Assembly (NCBI GenBank): GCA_002077065.1
Contig: NAJO01000064.1
Location: forward strand, 1 to 64,000
From: Cryoendolithus antarcticus
Taxonomy: Eukaryota > Ascomycota > Dothideomycetes > Cladosporiales > Cladosporiaceae
Length of the DNA: 64,000 nucleotides
Direction of reading: 5' to 3'
This document shows positions 1-40,991 of the stretch, piece after piece. How positions within the stretch are numbered: the stretch's first letter is position 1; every line of letters starts with the position of its first letter. Under the pieces are notes generated by a model. It saw only the letters and a list, made by a program, of their open reading frames with translations, made no database searches and was not told where the DNA came from. Both the position numbers and the translations under genes were made by a program.

Positions 1-761
1 ACGAGATTGGATTGCACTGGTACACCAAGCAAGGCGCTTCCTCCAGCTCCGGCCCAGCAGTCTGCTACATCCACGGCGGCGGCATGATCTGTCTCGGTCC
101 AGAGCACTATGACATCCCCATGAAGACCTACGTGACCCACACCGGTATCCCCTTCCTGCTAGTCGACTACCGCTTAGCTCCCGAAGTGCAAGCGCCCGTG
201 CCCGTCACGGACAGCTACGCTGGACTGAAGTACCTCTTCGCCCATGCGAGCGAGCTAGGCGTAGATCCGGCACGCATAGCACTCATGAGCGACTCGGCTG
301 GTGGCGGCATCGCGGCGTCAGTCACGCATCTGGCGAAGCAGAAGTCCGGCCCCAAGATCGCAAAGCAAGTCCTCATCTACCCCATGCTCGACAATCTCAA
401 CACCTCCGAGGATCCCGACACAGCGCCCTTCGCAACCTGGTCCGTAGACGACAATAAGACCGGCTGGGGTGCGCTGCTCGGCGACAAAGCCGGCTCAGAC
501 TCCGTTCCTGTTACTCACGCTGCGGGACGAGCTAGCATTGAGGACTTGAAGGATTTGGCGCCTGCTTATATCGATGTGGGCGAGCTTGATATTTTCAGAG
601 ATGAGGATCTGGAGTATGCAAGGAAGCTTGGGAAGGCTGGAGTTAGTGTTGAGTTCCATTTGTATCCGGGGGTGCCGCATGCTTTTGAGACTTTTGCGCC
701 GACGACAAAGGTTGGGCAGGCGGCGGTGGGTAATAGGTTGAAGTTCTTGGCAGGACTGTAG
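1..761 (+). CDS. alpha/beta hydrolase, HSL-type esterase/lipase (5' partial)
   Basis: The reading frame is open from the window edge (frame beginning at base 3), so the N-terminus lies outside. The HSL oxyanion motif is visible as YIHGGG. The nucleophile elbow is SDSAGGG, with Ser between Asp and Ala as in the family's GDSAGG. The acid is in GELDIFRDE and the histidine in VPHAFE, so the catalytic triad is complete. About 253 codons remain, close to a full catalytic domain. By family it should hydrolyse short-chain esters; the substrate cannot be read from the sequence. It has no signal peptide in the visible part. The stop is TAG at 759-761. Internal ATG or TTG codons near base 12 are not believed to be the start because the fold needs upstream strands. 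Confidence 0.88.
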   Translation, partial: EIGLHWYTKQGASSSSGPAVCYIHGGGMICLGPEHYDIPMKTYVTHTGIPFLLVDYRLAPEVQAPVPVTDSYAGLKYLFAHASELGVDPARIALMSDSAGGGIAASVTHLAKQKSGPKIAKQVLIYPMLDNLNTSEDPDTAPFATWSVDDNKTGWGALLGDKAGSDSVPVTHAAGRASIEDLKDLAPAYIDVGELDIFRDEDLEYARKLGKAGVSVEFHLYPGVPHAFETFAPTTKVGQAAVGNRLKFLAGL

Positions 762-1022
762 AGCGAGGTCTTTGTGAGTATGAGATTCTCCACTTGTTAG
801 ACTGTTCTGTACTCAGGCATGTATTTGTGCGCTGGGGAGGTTTGTGGACACGTTGGGGGCAGCGTGTGAGTTTCGCGAGGTTAGGCAGCGGTCGTTCCTG
901 CCCCGTAATGAGTCGGTACACTTCCTTCTCTACCTCACTTCTTCACTCATACGCACGTTTGGATTAGTTGATAATTCATACCTGCGCGGAGAACGCAGTT
1001 TCCGTCTGCCAGACCTGCTAAG

Positions 1023-1901
1023 ATGGCGAGAACGAAGCAAACAGCGCGCAAGAGTACCGGCGGTAGAAAGCCGCGTCACACGCTAGCAGATCAGATTAAG
1101 AGGCGAGAGGCGAAGCGTCTAAAGACACCTGAGCCGCCTAGTGAGGAGCCCATCCTGGGGAGCTACCTCGCTGCGGAGCGCAAGGCGACCATCAGTGCTT
1201 ATGCAAAGCTTGATCGCGATGTACCCGAGACCAAGGCTGTAACGTGTACAACTATGTTAGATAAGCACACCGTTGATGGGACGAGGAACACCAGCTGGCG
1301 TACTGCCGAGCTGGAATACAGCGTCTCGATTCTGAACTACCTCGAGACCATGGACCGCGATATCTACGAGGAAGATGTGCCATGGACACGGTACCCGCCA
1401 ACATCGCCGAGTATGTCAACTTTGACTATGCCCGACGAATGCGAGGACAGGTTCTGGGAGCAGGAGGATCGTATCAAGAAAATCACGCGGTCCGTGATGG
1501 AGTGTGCTGCGTACTGTATCTTGGTACTACGATCTTCTTGCGAAGTCTTCGCTTATGCTAAATCTTTTGCAGCCACGCCGAAATTTATGCATATCCTCGA
1601 TGCTGAAGAGATTGCACAGGCTATCAGTCGAGACATTGCGAAGCAGATACAGCGTTACGGGCGAGGAACGCGACTCTACCGCAATGCCCTTCAGGGGCAT
1701 TTCCGCTACATCTACAGAATGCGTCAAATCGCTCAACCAAGAGCACTCGACTTCGCACTCGAGGCCATGGAGCGCTACTCGGTGCTCTGCTGTTTTCACG
1801 CCAAGACCTGGCTATCAGAACCCATGGAGTTCGAGTGTGGCGCCTCGGATGATTTGCATGCCATGCTTATCGCAACGAAAGCAGGCTGGGATGCTGAGTA
1901 A
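1023..1901 (+). CDS. histone H3-tail-mimic protein with unknown helical body
   Basis: ATG at 1023 opens a 292-residue protein beginning MARTKQTARKSTGG, identical to the H3 tail through Gly13. It continues RKPRHTLA, where H3 has KAPRKQLA. Counting after Met, 17 of 21 residues match, including R2, K4, R8, K9, S10, T11 and R17; K14 and K18 are lost. A basic stretch (residues about 26-35) and a TPEPP linker follow. The remaining ~250 residues have no histone fold and no domain I recognise; they look mostly helical and contain several Cys. The codons (AGA, ACA, CAA, AGT) are not the strongly biased set usual for fungal histone genes. The tail could be read by H3K4/K9 writers, readers or erasers; that is inference. 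The TAA at 1899-1901 may be premature (see next entry). Confidence 0.75.
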   Translation: MARTKQTARKSTGGRKPRHTLADQIKRREAKRLKTPEPPSEEPILGSYLAAERKATISAYAKLDRDVPETKAVTCTTMLDKHTVDGTRNTSWRTAELEYSVSILNYLETMDRDIYEEDVPWTRYPPTSPSMSTLTMPDECEDRFWEQEDRIKKITRSVMECAAYCILVLRSSCEVFAYAKSFAATPKFMHILDAEEIAQAISRDIAKQIQRYGRGTRLYRNALQGHFRYIYRMRQIAQPRALDFALEAMERYSVLCCFHAKTWLSEPMEFECGASDDLHAMLIATKAGWDAE

Positions 1902-3011: not shown

Positions 3012-4259
3012 TCAATTCCTTGCATCCCATCGTCTTCTCAGTTCATTTGCACGTCTCGCAGCTTCCACCCTTTGGTGAGCTTGTGCCTCTGCCTGGCTCG
3101 CAGCGTAGTCGGGCAGATCGTCACCTTCGTCCATGTCATCGTCCGTTGTACCTCTCCAGTCATCGATGGCTGCCTCGAGAGACGCCACTGTGTCGAGTGG
3201 TTGGATCGGACCAGACCGGAGGCTATGGCTGTCTGACGGCAGCCACAAATCTAGTCCAGAGGCTGAAGCCTGTAGTCGCTGTCGGTGAGCTTCCGAGACG
3301 TGAGAGATCTCGGGTAGTGATGCGAGGTGTTGCAAAGCGTGTCTCGTTCTGGGCGTGTCTGCTATGGGCGATACAGAGTACTCCCGGGAAACACTTGGAT
3401 GCGTGGGGATGCTAACACTGCTCGTTACGTGCTGGCGACTTGAAGTCGACAACGGAGACAGTGTATCGAGACCGACCATAACTGCCGCGAACACACTGGC
3501 TTCCTGATCGCTATCGAAGGACGTGTCACTCCTCACCCGCGGGACTCGTGCTCGTTCGCCAGGTGGGTATGTGTCGGCGCGCGAGAGATCCTGGTGTACA
3601 AACTCGGTGTCCAGTCCGAGCCCATGGTCGAAGCGGAACGGCGTGTTTGGCTGACTGACAGATCGATACGAAGGATGCAATGTACCCGTGTTCGCGACAA
3701 CGTTGTATGGATCATACGGGCTGAGCTGTGGGTAAAGCCGACCAAGGTCTGTAGGATTCAGCGAAACATTGTTGAGTGGCTGTGGTCGCCGACGTGGACG
3801 TGAACCACTGAGTACAGAGCGGTGTCTCATAGGTAGTGGTGTCGGCGCGAGTGGTGTCGATGATACCCCACGAGCGAAGTTGTTCGTCAAGTGAGGTCGA
3901 TCCAGCCGGTCTTGCAGATCCCGTGAGGGCGGCCGCTGCCAGTCATTCGGTCGGTATGCTTCGGGGATGGTCGACCACTGACTTTGAGGAAGAGGGCTTG
4001 ACCACGCCTGCATTGTACTCCATCCCTCGAGTGCCTCGACGGAGGGTCTGGATGTCGCATCTCTAGGCTGCCTGCCCGATGTTGTTGAGCTGTCATGGCT
4101 TTGCCTTGTCCTCGATGGCGGCCCATATGTAAAGCGCATCTCATGGTCCTTCTGCATCGCAGAGTCTGACAATGCCAGATCGGCCAGTAGATCGCGACAA
4201 AGCGAGACGCTCCTATAGAAGTCGGCTTGCATCACTAAATGTGTACAAGCGAGTTCCAT
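3012..4259 (-). CDS. hypothetical disordered protein
   Basis: I do not recognise this protein. The start chosen is the ATG at 4259, giving 415 residues; the frame is open about 46 codons further upstream but has no ATG there, so a spliced first exon is possible. A short helical N-terminus (residues 1-45, MELACTHLVMQADFYRS and onward) is followed by ~300 residues rich in Ser, Pro, Arg and Thr. The C-terminus is acidic (about DDDMDEGDDLPDYA) and then turns into an Ala/Arg/Glu-rich helix. There is no signal peptide or membrane segment. The composition suggests an intracellular scaffold-type or regulatory protein, but the sequence alone does not support a function. Confidence 0.55.
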   Translation of the reverse strand: MELACTHLVMQADFYRSVSLCRDLLADLALSDSAMQKDHEMRFTYGPPSRTRQSHDSSTTSGRQPRDATSRPSVEALEGWSTMQAWSSPLPQSQWSTIPEAYRPNDWQRPPSRDLQDRLDRPHLTNNFARGVSSTPLAPTPLPMRHRSVLSGSRPRRRPQPLNNVSLNPTDLGRLYPQLSPYDPYNVVANTGTLHPSYRSVSQPNTPFRFDHGLGLDTEFVHQDLSRADTYPPGERARVPRVRSDTSFDSDQEASVFAAVMVGLDTLSPLSTSSRQHVTSSVSIPTHPSVSREYSVSPIADTPRTRHALQHLASLPEISHVSEAHRQRLQASASGLDLWLPSDSHSLRSGPIQPLDTVASLEAAIDDWRGTTDDDMDEGDDLPDYAASQAEAQAHQRVEAARRANELRRRWDARN

Positions 4260-5401
4260 GATGTCGGAGAGTTGCACAAAGGAGACTTTGGGCCGAAATG
4301 AAAAAGTGTTGGATCGCCGCACCTGCAGCTTATGTATTGGAGGAGCGCATAAAGTGGAACGCGATCGACTCCAGGATAAACTCGTGTCGATCGTCAATGC
4401 TACATAGCCAACTGACTATACGGCGGCGGCATCCCGGCACAGGAATACTGCGGAGTGATAAACGGATATGAGCCCTGCCGCGGTCACTCTGCCTCAATAC
4501 TACCGCGCGCCTGATTATGTGCGCAGCAGCGGATCTTACGAACGAGGAATGCTTCGCGACAAGAATGAAGCAAGATCGACACGAGCATCATCTGCCCGAG
4601 CGCACAAAAAGCAGCCCTGGACATGGTCCCAAGATGTATTTCGTATCCTGCGGTACACTTTTCAGCTGGTACATCTAACCTGGAATTACGGTCAGGCTCC
4701 CGAAGAGTAGCAGCGTCCGGTCGCGTGGCGTTGTCTGATACGAAGTGCCCTGTGGCGGCACGCAGATAGACTCAGCGCTTGGGAGCAGATCTTGGAGCTT
4801 GGCATTCAGGTCTATATTTGAATATAGTAAGCTGATGTTCAAGGTACGAGCATGGTCATCGTGAGCACATACTGCCGACACTACGATGTCATCCAGTGGT
4901 CGGCGCAGTCACTCACAATTGACCCCAGTCCAGAAGCGATCCGGAGGCCACCGTGGCGACTTCAGGTGCTTGGGCCGACGTCGTTGCATTGGGAACGACA
5001 AACTGTAGCCTCCATGTTCACGACTCAAAGGTGCCTAATCGCGTGCCGTATAACAGCCGATCGCGAAGGTCGTAGCGCTGCGCAGCGGAGCAATTCAGGC
5101 GGGACATGTCACACAGATGAAGACCGTGGAAGACCAATGCTGAAGGATCGTGGCAGTGAAGTTCCAAGAATAACTTCCATAGATTGGATTACATAAACAT
5201 CATCCGAGTCATGCAGAATCGATATGCACTATCCACTTGCTCATGCCACGACGTACCCTTGGGAGCAATGTCCCAGTCGCTGCGTACAAATGTTGTGCAC
5301 AGATAACGGGCCGCGTAGCTTAACGCAAGAAGTCGTGATAGTCAACGGACAAACAATCGCGCTGGAACCTCGCAGGAATCTACAACAGACGCAGCTGTAT
5401 C
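4260..5401. other. intergenic, no supported gene
   Basis: An 80-codon ATG frame at 4468-4710 lacks any recognisable domain and is not called. No other structure is seen. Confidence 0.45.
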
Positions 5402-5772
5402 TCATCGCTTAAAGCTGGCGTCGAGACTTTTCTCGAGCTGGTACTGCGGCTGGAACTCGACATATAGACTCTCCTGCATAAGACGTCAGTGATCATAGCA
5501 ACGGCCACATCAAGTAGCAGAATGCGTACGGGATCGGCAGCTAGCCTGGCAATGGCCGCAGCATCACGATCTGGTAAGACTTTCTTCGGCAACCGAGTTG
5601 CCGCGACCATGAGCTAGATCTGACAGCTCTGCTCAAGCAAGGTGTACAAACATGCTGCCTCGTCGACCGGGGCACCAACAGTGATGAGACCGTGGTTGAC
5701 GAGGATGCTGGGCCTAGCACCACCCAACGCTTTTGCGTATATATTATCTTTGCTGGCATAATCTGATGAAAG
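5402..5772 (-). pseudogene. class II aldolase/adducin C-terminal relic
   Basis: Reading leftwards from 5772, the frame gives the family signature LVNHGLITVG followed by VDEAACLYTLLEQSCQ, where the NHG histidine belongs to the metal-binding set of class II aldolases. It is then cut by an in-frame TAG (5616-5614) at a position where relatives usually have Gln. The frame continues as LMVAATRLPKKVLPD to an intron (5529-5474, 56 nt, GTACGC...GCAG, phase 0). It ends in the typical C-terminus LYVEFQPQYQLE and a TGA at 5404-5402. The N-terminal half of the domain is absent. The relic begins directly after, and in frame with, the stop codon of the MFS gene. It is the 3' end of a deleted gene, now dead. 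Confidence 0.72.
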
Positions 5773-8501: not shown

Positions 8502-10076
8502 ATGGCCATCGCTGGACCAGCAAGCAAGCAATTCCTCCCTCCCATCGATGAGCCAAACACGGGCATCAATGCACGACCGTCACAACCGAAGAAGGTGGCA
8601 TATCTCTACGATGCGAACATCGGCCACTACGCATACGAGAGCGGCCACTGTATGAAGCCTCACCGTATTCGCATGGCTCACGATCTTGTCATGAACTACG
8701 GCATCTTCAATAAGCTCGAGATTTTCAGGGCTCAGCCGGCGTCGAAGTTGGAGATGACGCAGTTTCATACCGATGAGTACATCGACTTCTTGTCGAAAGT
8801 CACACCTGAAAGTGCAGAGAAGTATACTAAGGAGCGCACGAAGTTCAACGTATTGGAGGACTGCCCGTTACGATAGGACAACTTTGTGTTCATCCAGCTA
8901 CTAATCTAACAACTAGGTCTTCGACGGACTCTTCGAATACTGTGGTATCTCCGCAGGAGGTTCCATGGAAGGTGCTGCGAGGCTTAACAGGGGCAAATGC
9001 GACATTGCGATCAACTGGGCTGGTGGTCTCCATCACGCGAAGAAGGCGGAAGCAAGTGGGTTCTGCTATGTCAACGGTGCGTTGCTGCTCACTCGAGTGG
9101 TCTGACGGCGTCACACCATTGCTTCACACCGCCACAAGCGCTAACGATGAACAGACATCGTTTTGGGCGTCCTTGAATTGCTCCGCTTCCACCAACGGGT
9201 CTTGTACATTGACATTGACGTCCACCACGGCGATGGGGTCGAAGAAGCATTTTACACTACCGATCGGGTGATGACGCTATCTCTGCACAAGTATGGCGAA
9301 TTCTTCCCAGGCACCGGGGAGCTCAGGGATATCGGTGTCGGATCAGGTCGTCGATACTCAATCAACGTCCCCTTGAGAGACGGCATCGATGACGCGAACT
9401 ACAAGAGCATCTTCGAGCCGATCGTCACCTCGACCATGGAGCATTACCGTCCGGGCGCTATCGTACTGCAGTGCGGAGCAGACTCGCTGTCTGGAGATCG
9501 ATTGGGATGCTTCAATCTTAGTATGAAGGGGCATGCTAGTTGCGTGAACTTCGTGAAGAGCTTCGGACTGCCCCTACTGGTATTGGGCGGCGGAGGGTAT
9601 ACCAGTATGTAGTCCGAACGACAAGATCAGGAGATGCCTCGCTGACTAGTGTTACTACAGTGCGCAATGTGGCACGTACCTGGGCCTACGAAACCGGACA
9701 GCTCGTCGACCACGACATGGTTGATACCTTGCCTTTCACAGACTACTACGAGTACTATGCTCCGGAGTTTGCGCTCGATGTGCCAGCTAGCAATATGCAA
9801 AACGCTAACACCAGAGAGTATTTGGAGAGGATCAAGACCTTCATCTTCGAGAACTTGAGGAAGACGATACCCTCGGCACCGTCTGTGCAGATGCAGGCGA
9901 TTCCACGCCATTCCATGGGTATGGACGAGACGCTCGATGAAGAAGAGGACCGGCTTGACGATGAGGACAGCGAGGCTAATGCTGACCATCGGTACACGCA
10001 ACGCATGGTAGACAAAATGGTTGAGCGAGATGGTGAGCTGATGGCACCGGAGCGAATGAGCATCATGGCGGCCTGA
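8502..10076 (+). CDS. HOS2: class I histone deacetylase, Hos2/HosA type
   Basis: Exons: 8502-8849 (or -8866), 8917-9076, 9155-9604 and 9661-10076. Class I HDAC landmarks are present: [36 protein letters not shown] (the two active-site histidines), [14 protein letters not shown] (Zn ligands), [32 protein letters not shown] and LGGGGYT. The short acidic C-terminus ([13 protein letters not shown]) and VTPESAEKY fit Hos2 rather than the longer-tailed Rpd3. It removes acetyl groups from histone H3/H4 tails in a Set3C-type complex. Introns 2 and 3 are canonical. The first junction is odd: the donor that keeps the reading frame (8850) removes six conserved residues, while the donor that keeps them (8867) shifts the frame by one. 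With donor 8850 the protein is 457 residues. Confidence 0.9.
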
Positions 10077-37614: not shown

Positions 37615-40233
37615 TTACACTACCTTCCCAAACTTCAACGTACTCTGCTTCAATCCCTTCCCCTCCCCACTCCCTCCCACCTTACCCTTCCCTTTCACAC
37701 CCCCAGCACCCAAGCCCCTTCCCACAGCTCCAGCAACACCCCTCAACACCTCCCCAAATTTCCTCCGCTTCTTCGCCGGTTCCTCGTCTACAGCCAGCAC
37801 ATCGTCTTCATTCAGACTCACAAGGCTGGTGGCTGAAGAGGCGAGGAGAGGCGCGACTTCGTCGGCTTTGGAGACGGTCTCGGAAGTTGAAGTAGCGGCG
37901 GTAGGTTGAGGGACGATGGAGGAGGGCAGGGCTTCCGTGAATTTGGAGGTGCCGGTGCTGAGGGCAGAGTGGGTGCGTTTGTGAGCTGGGCGGAAGGTGG
38001 AGGGTTCAGGCTTGGTCTCCGGAGCACTTGCAGTAATAGGTGCCGCTTCGTCGGTGAGTGTTACGTCTTTCGGCTCGGTCGTGACCTCGATAATTGATGG
38101 ACGCTCGGCAACTGCTTCGTCGTCTGCTGGCTCGGAAGCCATCACGCGCGAGGCAGTCAGATCGCCTTCCTCCTTCACAGCATCATCCGCACCAGCAGCA
38201 ACATCCCCCACAGCCTTCTTGACTTTAAACTCCACAACCGTCTTCGTAGTTGTCCTCCTCTTCGCCTGCTTCACCACCACCTCCGCCGTCCTCTTGAGCG
38301 GCGCTCCGCTTCTCCTCGCCTCCAGCCTCGCAGCCCTCACACTCCCTTTCTCCCTCTCCGCCTTCGCCTCAAGCTCCTTCTTAAGATCATCCTTGATATC
38401 CCCCAACGTCACCCAACCTCTCCACCCAGCTTTCTTCCCACCCTCAGCCTTGGCCTTCGCAGCCTCTCTCGCCTTCTTCTCGGCCTCAGCCTGCACTTTC
38501 GCGAGCCTCTCAGCCTCCTCTTTCTGCCACTTCTTCAGCTCATCTTTGCTCAGTCTCGCGCACAGAAAACCACGACAACTCGGTGCGCCGCAGTAGCAGC
38601 GTTGCCTCGTCTGCCCGAAATTGTCAAAGTTATAGTCGTACGTCAGCTCCTCCCCCGTCTTTACGCCGTTCTCCCCAGCAAACACTCCCATCCTCGGCGT
38701 TCCAGCAACAAGACACATCCTCACCTCGCAATTCGGCTCACAGCTATGGTTGACGAAACGAGCCATACTACCTTTCGTGCCGTCAATCACTAGACCGCCG
38801 TCCAATTCCATGAGATAGTAATTATCCTTGCCGTTATACACCTCATGCATACGCCGCTGACACTCGCCTTCGGAGATGATCTCACCGGTATACTCCATGA
38901 CAATGTCGCCCGGGGTGAAAGCACGACAAGCTCTTACGCCGAATCCGCGGTTGCCAGTAGCGAGGACTTCGACGCCGACGTCGTAGGCGCCTTTCTTCTC
39001 GAGGCGCTTGCCCAGCTCTGCGAAGGCGCGATTACCGCAGTCTTTGGCGGAGAGTAGGCAGTTCTCTTCGGAGCATTCGTACTGCATACTGCGGTTTAGA
39101 CACCATTCGCCGCAGCCGTGGCTTTCGCCTTCAGCTGGTGACTCGCAACCGCAGAGAGAGCGAGGTAGGGCTTTCGCTTGAGCGCGGCGTTTCCAGATGT
39201 CCTTTGCGTCACCAATCAAGCGGTTCTTGTTGACTTGCGTCCAGTCGCGGGGTTTCTGGTGGTACTTCGTAACACTCGGTGCGAAGACATCGAAGGGAAT
39301 GACAAAGTCGCGCTGTTTGGTCATGTAGTCGAACATGGGCAGAGGGAGAAATGGTAGCTTTGATGTCGTAGGGGCCGGAGCATCAGACATCGCTGAGCCG
39401 GGTCGTTTCTTCGAGAGCTTCTTGCTGGCGCCTGACTGCGTGGACTCCGGATCGGCAGTCTGCCCAACGTACAGCCCCTCTTTCTGCCACTTCTTCCCCC
39501 GCTTCCCTGTCGTAGTCTTGATCACCGACAGCGGCTGCACCACAACCGGCGGTGCCTCCTCCTTGACAGTCTCCTTCTTCGCCTTCTTGCTCGGCCTCTC
39601 TAGCTCCTCCTCCAAGGCATACAAGTCGATCTCGTCCAGCACACCCCTCGGTCCCATCTCCAGCTCCTTGAGCAACTTCGTCTTCTTCACAGTCACTTCC
39701 TCCAGCTTCCTCTTCCCTGCCTCCACGACATCCCGCGATCGCTTCCCAAGCACAGAGCTCACCTTCCCAGCCACGCTCTTGACGCGATCTTTGACGCTCT
39801 GCTGCCTGAAGACGGGCCGGGGTGGGAGATCCGCAGGGATGGATTCGGAGATCAAGCTCTTCTTGGCTGCAGCCTTGGGCTTCGTGCTGGGCTCGCGCTC
39901 CGAGTCATCCACAAGCGTCCGACCTGTAAGCCCGCTGACGCTTCGCCGTTTCGCTGCCTGCCCTGCATCCTCCTCCCGCTGCTGATCAGAGAGGGTCTTG
40001 AGGTTGTAGTTCACGCTCGATCTCGCTCGTTTCGCGCGTCCACTAGGACCAGCCTCGTCCTTGCCCGACGCGATACTACTCGCGTCGCCCAAGCTAGTAG
40101 GCGGCGTCGAGGCTGCAGGAGCATCGGACGCGTTCTCGTCGTCCAGAGTGCCGCCAGCGACTTGTATGTTTGAGAGGGCCGAGGAAGACGTAGTCGACGA
40201 CTCACGCGTCGTTGGATCGAGGGCACGCGTCAT
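37615..40233 (-). CDS. ASH1: ASH1-type histone H3K36 methyltransferase (AWS-SET-postSET)
   Basis: A single exon of 872 residues from ATG 40233 (the open frame upstream starts only with GTG). Residues 1-300 are basic and disordered. An AWS Cys cluster at about 361-401 (LCGCESP, GCGEWCLNRSMQYEC, CLLSAKDCGNRAF) is followed by the SET domain at about 415-540: ATGNRGFGVRACRAF, EYTGEIISEGECQRR, RFVNHSCEPNCEVR and ELTYDYNF, with the catalytic Tyr and SAM-binding Asn-His intact. The post-SET Cys are in CYCGAPSCRGFLC. The last ~300 residues are Lys/Glu- and Ser/Thr-rich. AWS plus SET without WW/SRI regions favours ASH1 over Set2. It methylates H3K36 in chromatin, and in fungi acts on weakly transcribed regions. 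Confidence 0.88.
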   Translation of the reverse strand: MTRALDPTTRESSTTSSSALSNIQVAGGTLDDENASDAPAASTPPTSLGDASSIASGKDEAGPSGRAKRARSSVNYNLKTLSDQQREEDAGQAAKRRSVSGLTGRTLVDDSEREPSTKPKAAAKKSLISESIPADLPPRPVFRQQSVKDRVKSVAGKVSSVLGKRSRDVVEAGKRKLEEVTVKKTKLLKELEMGPRGVLDEIDLYALEEELERPSKKAKKETVKEEAPPVVVQPLSVIKTTTGKRGKKWQKEGLYVGQTADPESTQSGASKKLSKKRPGSAMSDAPAPTTSKLPFLPLPMFDYMTKQRDFVIPFDVFAPSVTKYHQKPRDWTQVNKNRLIGDAKDIWKRRAQAKALPRSLCGCESPAEGESHGCGEWCLNRSMQYECSEENCLLSAKDCGNRAFAELGKRLEKKGAYDVGVEVLATGNRGFGVRACRAFTPGDIVMEYTGEIISEGECQRRMHEVYNGKDNYYLMELDGGLVIDGTKGSMARFVNHSCEPNCEVRMCLVAGTPRMGVFAGENGVKTGEELTYDYNFDNFGQTRQRCYCGAPSCRGFLCARLSKDELKKWQKEEAERLAKVQAEAEKKAREAAKAKAEGGKKAGWRGWVTLGDIKDDLKKELEAKAEREKGSVRAARLEARRSGAPLKRTAEVVVKQAKRRTTTKTVVEFKVKKAVGDVAAGADDAVKEEGDLTASRVMASEPADDEAVAERPSIIEVTTEPKDVTLTDEAAPITASAPETKPEPSTFRPAHKRTHSALSTGTSKFTEALPSSIVPQPTAATSTSETVSKADEVAPLLASSATSLVSLNEDDVLAVDEEPAKKRRKFGEVLRGVAGAVGRGLGAGGVKGKGKVGGSGEGKGLKQSTLKFGKVV

Positions 40234-40991
40234 CGTTGTTGAAGATCGTTGGGACAGCTTGCGGCGTCGGTGTAGGGAAGCAATGGCGGTAAGCCCGCTA
40301 AGCAAGACGCGTGAAGTGCCACGCTGAGAGGGAAGAGAGCGAGTAGATGGCGGAAGCGAGAGGGTCACAATGGACGCGGTGCATGCGTGATCAGCCCGCA
40401 CATTCACTAAGCAACAAGGATATCAAATTCGAAGCGAGATGTGAAGTGTGTAGAACGAATTGGTGTTGTGTATATGGGAAGCTCGTGATGGTGAAGTGGG
40501 AGGCAGGCAGCCTGCGGGTGGGTCCTCCAATCACCACATACTTGACATGCATATTGCGGGTGCAAACATTCCGCACACAACACTTGGAAGATTGCACGGC
40601 TGTAGTAGAGAGTGCTTTTTTGGCTCGAAGCTTTCGAGGCATAAGCTAGCCCCTTACAAGGCGTTGCGGTCGACAGTAAAGACGCTGTTTAGGATCAGCT
40701 GACTCTCGGCCACAATGCCAGCATGTCGCATTAGCCTCGCAATCTGTGGAGAGTGCAGCTGATACAGATGTCGGAGTAGCAAAAGTGAGCGTCAAGAAGC
40801 ACTGCGTGGCCAAGCGTGCGGGTCAACTGTTGTGCGTGGCTACGTGAGGTAGCTGTCGAGGTCCGGATTGTAGTGCGAGAAGAATTCAGACGGGATCGGG
40901 CAGAAGATGGTAGACAGTGATCAATTGGTAGATCCCGTTGCTGTAAACAGACTGTACACGCTCCCTTCGAATATCAACCAAGTGCCCCCGC
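40234..40991. other. intergenic upstream of ASH1-type gene
   Basis: Promoter of the ASH1-type gene plus the 3' flank of the NDUFA4-like gene. No supported gene. Confidence 0.5.

Follow-up and report, generated by a model that had tools for sequence, protein, structure and literature searches.

A near-exact histone H3 tail on a non-histone protein of Cryoendolithus antarcticus: a candidate N-terminal docking mimic

The window, a stretch of 64,000 nucleotides (contig NAJO01000064.1) from the fungus Cryoendolithus antarcticus, carries near its left end an open reading frame whose protein starts as MARTKQTARKSTGGRKPRHTLADQIKRREAKR, an opening also written MARTKQTARKSTGGRKPRHTLA. Directly after the Met, ARTKQTARKSTGG is exact. 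Residues 1-13, P16, R17, L20 and A21 are identical to histone H3, whereas positions 14 and 18 are R and H in place of K14 and K18 of H3. The H3 sites R2, K4, R8, K9, S10 and T11 are all present, and the segment C-terminal to the tail is basic. The frame and its coordinates proved to be as an earlier note on this DNA had given them, and residue comparison confirmed its count of 17 identities in 21, the two changed lysines and the full set of modifiable residues. The features of the gene are as follows.

1023..1088, plus strand: Met and H3-like tail, residues 1-21 (ARTKQTARKSTGGRKPRHTLA), 17/21 identical to H3; kept in the relatives P0122 and P0123
1023..1901, plus strand: tail-bearing protein frame, 292 codons and a stop; no Pfam domain, helical in a low-confidence prediction
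1516..1572, plus strand: probable intron of 57 nt, GT...GCTAAAT...GCAG, borders provisional; 18 alignment columns are missing here in both relatives
1899..1901, plus strand: in-frame stop where both relatives read on, from the alignment with P0122 and P0123
1902..2123, plus strand: same-frame continuation of 73 codons, equivalent to the C-terminus of the relatives and severed by the stop; from the alignment with P0123, with coding-like codon use

Beyond the tail, the protein resembles no histone. The window protein matched no Pfam family up to E 10, and searches with P0122 and P0123 to a threshold of E 0.01 were likewise empty. A PDB sequence search returned 132 chains at E <= 10 (best E 2.4e-4), of which the best 60 were H3-type, with alignments reaching no further than the first 37 residues, that is, the tail. 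By Pfam and PDB sequences, the protein therefore has the N-terminal tail of H3 and lacks the histone fold, which upholds the earlier description of a body without one; it has an H3-like sequence at its extreme N-terminus, as SNAG-type proteins do, and by Pfam lacks their zinc-finger body. AlphaFold models of the body (mean pLDDT 41.8 from a single sequence, 37.6 from three) were too poor to inform on its fold. The genome itself is eukaryotic and comprises 46.97 Mb in 149 contigs, and many of its domains occur twice, on paired contigs; in PMC5502844, as far as the text was available, the published R. antarcticum assembly is given as 47.4 Mb with 18,781 genes. When the 47 Mb were scanned with a degenerate DNA pattern for ARTKQTARK, it hit three places, namely the two H3 genes and the window site (reversed control, 0), and the looser pattern TKQT[AV]RK hit five, adding contigs C78 and C58 (control, 0). 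Searching the genome with the window protein (E <= 10) recovered its own locus, the tail on C78 (E 0.09) and a match on C124 (25% identity, E 0.2), considered as a body paralogue and taken as chance; with P0123 as query, the only matches were the own locus and C78.

A protein search with window residues 1-290 (E <= 1, 592 candidates) gave five matches, including the window protein itself. The nearest is P0122 of Rachicladosporium sp. CCFEE 5018 (331 aa, 84%), followed by P0123 of Oleoguttula sp. CCFEE 5521 (369 aa, 53%). Both start with the tail, as do all three family members, so that relatives conserving it, which the earlier note had made a test of its reading, do exist; P0122 carries the change G12R. 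The remaining two, P0124 and P0125 (E 0.27 and 0.41), bear the tail on different bodies. In the three-protein alignment, 39/45 of columns 1-45 are invariant vs 111/227 of the remainder (hypergeometric 1.2e-6), and among 251 windows of 22 columns the one starting at residue 1 ties for first with that at residue 231. Pairwise, against P0123 the tail is better conserved than the body (40/45 vs 119/227, p 2e-6), whereas against P0122 it is not (42/45 vs 203/229, p 0.44). Because Oleoguttula is placed in Mycosphaerellales and R. antarcticum (in NCBI now Cryoendolithus antarcticus) in Cladosporiales, the tail would predate the split of these orders, unless there has been sideways gene transfer or a strain is misnamed.

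The body is in a different state. Near residue 165, 18 alignment columns are missing in P0122 and P0123, and the 292-aa frame probably contains an intron, the best in-frame GT-AG candidate there being 1516-1572, with GCTAAAT before the acceptor; its excision would remove 19 residues against the 18 columns lacking in the relatives, so the borders are provisional. Past the stop at 1899-1901 the relatives extend 57 and 83 residues further. The 72 residues that follow the stop align with P0123 free of gaps, and P0122 matches 28 residues before its frame shifts. Codon use over 1023-1898 scores 0.13 per codon vs -0.06 and -0.03 for the two remaining frames of that strand, on a scale trained on long frames of the window rather than verified genes; the 66-nt tail alone scores 0.061 in its own frame vs 0.151 in another, which counts against a mimic. 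The Oleoguttula frame is open to its longer C-terminus. With an in-frame stop here, a frameshift in P0122 (CCFEE 5018) and no body on C78, the body is decaying in this genus, while the tails of both the window and C78 stay readable.

The C78 locus is a second copy of the site, recognisable by two common flanks.

30..902, no strand assigned: upstream flank common to C78 at 85% identity; an alpha/beta-hydrolase-like frame, named by eye
3012..5742, no strand assigned: downstream flank common to C78 at 82% identity; the match stops near the end of the compared C78 stretch

At the matching site, C78 encodes a 50-aa tail peptide followed by a stop. This tail is more H3-like than that of the window, through residue 26, and has no body; the flanks lie 0.34 kb apart on C78 and 2.1 kb apart in the window. 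The starts of both contigs fall within one and the same hydrolase-like frame and are offset by about 30 bases (window 1-30, C78:1), as if the assembly had broken where the two copies become too alike.

The copies and the H3 genes of the same genome (C117, C82) allow the history of the tail to be read from its codons. The window tail shares residues 1-13, P16, R17, L20 and A21 with the own H3 and, unlike it, has no histone fold behind it. Over 14 codons, 10 differ between the window tail and the own H3, all synonymously, and 10 differ between the window and C78 tails, with 9 synonymous changes and one replacement (A7V). Random placement of the same 11 base changes, as a neutral expectation, gave a mean of 6.7 replacements, and one or none in 1/200,000 placements. 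Ser10 is encoded by AGT in one tail, by AGC in the other and by TCC in H3. Judged from these comparisons, the tail is homologous to that of H3 and its residues are under purifying selection: the DNA has diverged and the residues have stayed. With codon changes nearly all synonymous and the N-terminal columns more invariant than the remainder, the similarity to H3 is kept by selection on the residues. Third positions differ in 10/14 codons of the tail (window 1023-1064 vs C78:1005-1046) vs 71/243 of the neighbouring hydrolase-like frame (Fisher p 0.002), and the two tails may thus be older than the split of the flanks, or faster-changing. The earlier note had offered the capture of one H3 5' exon as an origin. 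In its simple form this is unsupported: in both H3 genes an intron lies inside the R8 codon, where the first exon ends, so a single exon of this genome cannot supply the tail, and no intron occurs anywhere in the window tail. Any capture of H3 is old. The H3 genes each adjoin a divergent H4 gene (C117:1095940-1097222 and C82:158774-160046).

We then looked at the tail apart from its body. A search with residues 1-45 of P0123 (E <= 10) matched 23 of 48 candidates: three family members, two histones (P0140, P0143), P0144 and 17 others. Outside the family the E-values ran from 0.085 to 9.6 and were mostly not significant, the exact tails being recognised by inspection. P0144, an odd frame with a tail that begins only at residue 32 and likewise has R14, was set aside. 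The 17 others, P0124 and the three family members make a census of 21. With the first 45 residues removed, blastp at E <= 1e-3 sorts their bodies into 13 unrelated groups.

Window family: three proteins
Fusarium ankyrin proteins: three (e.g. P0134)
Talaromyces/Paecilomyces family: three (e.g. P0135 of Talaromyces)
Pair P0126/P0127, from a Tara source
Grass and metagenome pair P0137 (Aristida) and P0125, at 24% identity
Singles: eight, including two F-box proteins (one of Podospora comata, P0141), an AAA protein and one sequence of a eukaryote collection

The sources are fungi, a grass, and marine and metagenome sequences. ARTKQTARKSTGG is exact in 20/21, position 14 is R in 21/21, and Met-Ala stands at residue 1 in 19/21. 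P0134, P0135, P0141 and P0137 thus resemble the window protein in an exact ARTKQTARKSTGG with R14 at or near the start and differ from it in bodies unrelated to its own (blastp E 1e-3, first 45 residues removed). The candidate step needs exact shared words, which favours exact tails, and the P0123 query itself has R14. The single-sequence members could be artefacts. In the C-terminal part of P0129, a tail-capped metagenome protein, a SET-like region was seen by eye, without confirmation from Pfam; if this part is real, the H3 tail and an H3-type enzyme fold are joined in one chain.

Several searches frame the census. Contigs of prokaryote genomes held seven H3-tail stretches, all with K14 (7/7): five long H3 frames, a 43-aa contig-end fragment and one that departs from H3 after K14. 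These are taken as eukaryote DNA in metagenome bins. Since the H3 genes in this DNA scan carry K14, the R14 of the census argues against chimeras with H3 genes. Viral contigs had no match to either of two tail patterns. When the 50-aa peptide of C78 served as query, 745/1316 candidates matched at E <= 1e-3, and 18 pieces among the matches listed were H3-fragment-like, 41-78 aa long, 17 with K14 and one with M14; a K14 query thus returns K14, and the R14 of the census is not to be taken as universal. An H4-tail control in the same genome gave four matches at E <= 10. Two are near-complete tails, in frames 86 and 206 aa long, whereas the others, in frames 103 and 92 aa long, span only residues 17/18-38; what this control shows is just that the H4 N-terminus occurs nowhere else at this threshold. 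It is conceivable, though somewhat doubtful, that eukaryotic proteins have acquired the H3-tail cap repeatedly as an N-terminal module, with residues 1-13 exact and K14 replaced by Arg. Fungi, grasses and other eukaryotes would carry it on bodies of ankyrin, F-box, AAA, coiled-coil-like or orphan type, where it would let the protein dock to H3-tail readers off the nucleosome. On such a module, Arg at position 14 would preclude acetylation or ubiquitylation there.

To our knowledge, known histone mimics are short, partial or convergent. SNAG only resembles H3, and SNAG-type mimics have a zinc-finger repressor body. The window protein is like the SNAG proteins of the GFI1/SNAIL-type repressors in carrying an H3-like N-terminus on a non-histone protein (PMC5896174, in the part of the text available), and unlike them its residues 1-13 are exact and its body has no zinc-finger or other Pfam domain. 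It is like EZHIP in bearing an H3-like stretch on a non-histone protein (PMC6513997, as far as the available text goes); in EZHIP that stretch copies the K27 region near the C-terminus with Met at the target, whereas the window tail is N-terminal with K4 and K9 intact. Among the open-access matches listed, the titles and first abstract lines held no account of H3-tail-capped fungal proteins, and among open-access texts with the string MARTKQTARKSTGG none dealt with such proteins by title and abstract.

We place roughly even confidence in the reading that the tail is an inherited copy of the H3 tail, kept by selection as an N-terminal docking mimic in the manner of SNAG. Readers of the H3 N-terminus require a free Ala1. 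Removal of the initiator Met would leave a free Ala1-Arg2-Thr3-Lys4 end like that of H3, and because the chain would start as H3 does, the tail should fit the pockets that take the H3 N-terminus, which we infer to include those of PHD fingers and COMPASS and the LSD1/KDM1 substrate cleft. The protein would thereby be tethered to the H3-tail machinery, or would block its site, as with GFI1, whose SNAG domain occupies the pocket of LSD1 by imitating the N-terminus of H3 (PMC5896174). The genome has six SWIRM-domain matches, none identified as LSD1. In favour of a mimic, the tail codons have diverged with their residues held, the tail sits on 13 unrelated body groups, and C78 has a tail without a body; against it, both this locus and CCFEE 5018 have a disrupted body, which is how a dying gene would look. 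To judge from a single change on C78, A7V, the K4 end may be of more importance than the A7-R8-K9 motif. Of the mimic proposed in the earlier note, selection on the tail, relatives that bear it and freedom from misassembly now have evidence behind them, and binding to COMPASS, DIM-5/Clr4 and PHD readers would be its expected consequence. Near-exact H3 N-termini on proteins without the histone fold raise the question of which H3-tail machinery acts off nucleosomes, and cells may put the H3 tail to a second use, as a tag by which proteins dock to chromatin machinery. Antibodies to H3K4 or H3K9, or proteomics, may detect other, tail-bearing proteins, and since the tail recurs on unrelated bodies, laboratory fungi offer a way to test the question.

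The tail could instead serve as a decoy or competitive substrate, which would take over modification or binding from H3 and so titrate K4, K9 and S10 enzymes, with the body of minor importance. All of R2, K4, R8, K9, S10 and T11 are there to be modified, C78 retains the tail without the body, and EZHIP inhibits PRC2 through an H3-like segment (PMC6513997, in the text available). However, EZHIP depends on Met replacing the target Lys; with K4 and K9 intact, the window tail would act as a substrate, and one of low abundance would hardly compete with H3. We regard a decoy as unlikely.

That an old, once useful H3-tail fusion is now dying, without present function in this fungus, seems quite improbable. 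The in-frame stop at 1899-1901, the frameshift and G12R in P0122 and the missing body on C78 all fit such a fossil. However, residues 1-13 are intact in both tails, but for A7V, despite many synonymous changes, and P0123 is open to a longer end. We consider it distinctly improbable that the tail is kept as a nuclear import signal for karyopherin binding. As far as the available text of PMC5677370 shows, H3 residues 1-28 are an import signal bound by Kap123 and the effect of K14R is minor, which, with the basic segment after the window tail, would suit import. According to the same text, however, Kap123 orders only H3 12-17 and 21-26, around K14 and K23, and needs small residues beside K14; its consensus is Lys or Arg14 between small residues with a Lys at about 23, and the window tail has R14, Gly13, Lys15 and Lys25 and no Lys23. 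Because the kept block is 1-13 rather than these ordered residues, and position 15 is Lys, the import reading is weakened; import signals do not require an exact ARTKQTARKSTGG either. A chimera with an H3 locus, whether of the assembly or of the gene model, was named in the earlier note as a refutation, and the position 1 kb from the contig end might suggest it. For the window gene it is ruled out: the tail has diverged synonymously from the H3 genes, two other strains have it too, and the flanks are syntenic with C78, which bears a tail of its own.

The earlier note had also pointed to two chromatin enzymes in the same window.

8646-9618, plus strand: deacetylase domain
37618-40419, minus strand: protein with a SET domain at 38629-38946, closest in the PDB to NSD3, ASH1L and SETD2

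Both domains are present, and nothing ties them to the tail gene. The ASH1 label agrees with the PDB matches of the SET-domain protein to NSD3, ASH1L and SETD2, with E-values of about 1e-38 to 1e-36, which are of the H3K36 type. Elsewhere in the genome, a 988-aa protein occurs in two copies, each with an H3-tail-like stretch in its interior (RRTKQTARKAVQQQAPRRQMASMAARKSAPSA in the copy with 21/32) and an acidic run after it.

C58:227703-227798, minus strand: internal H3-tail-like stretch, 21/32 as H3
C139:777496-777588, plus strand: the other copy, 20/32

This stretch differs by 6 replacements in 31 codons between the copies and is no better kept than the rest of the protein, which has no Pfam match and by eye may resemble the fungal rvt reverse-transcriptase-like protein. 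H3-like core exons also lie at C64:276535-276924 and C67:505042-505431, with no recognisable H3 tail found nearby; they may belong to an H3 variant whose tail has changed.
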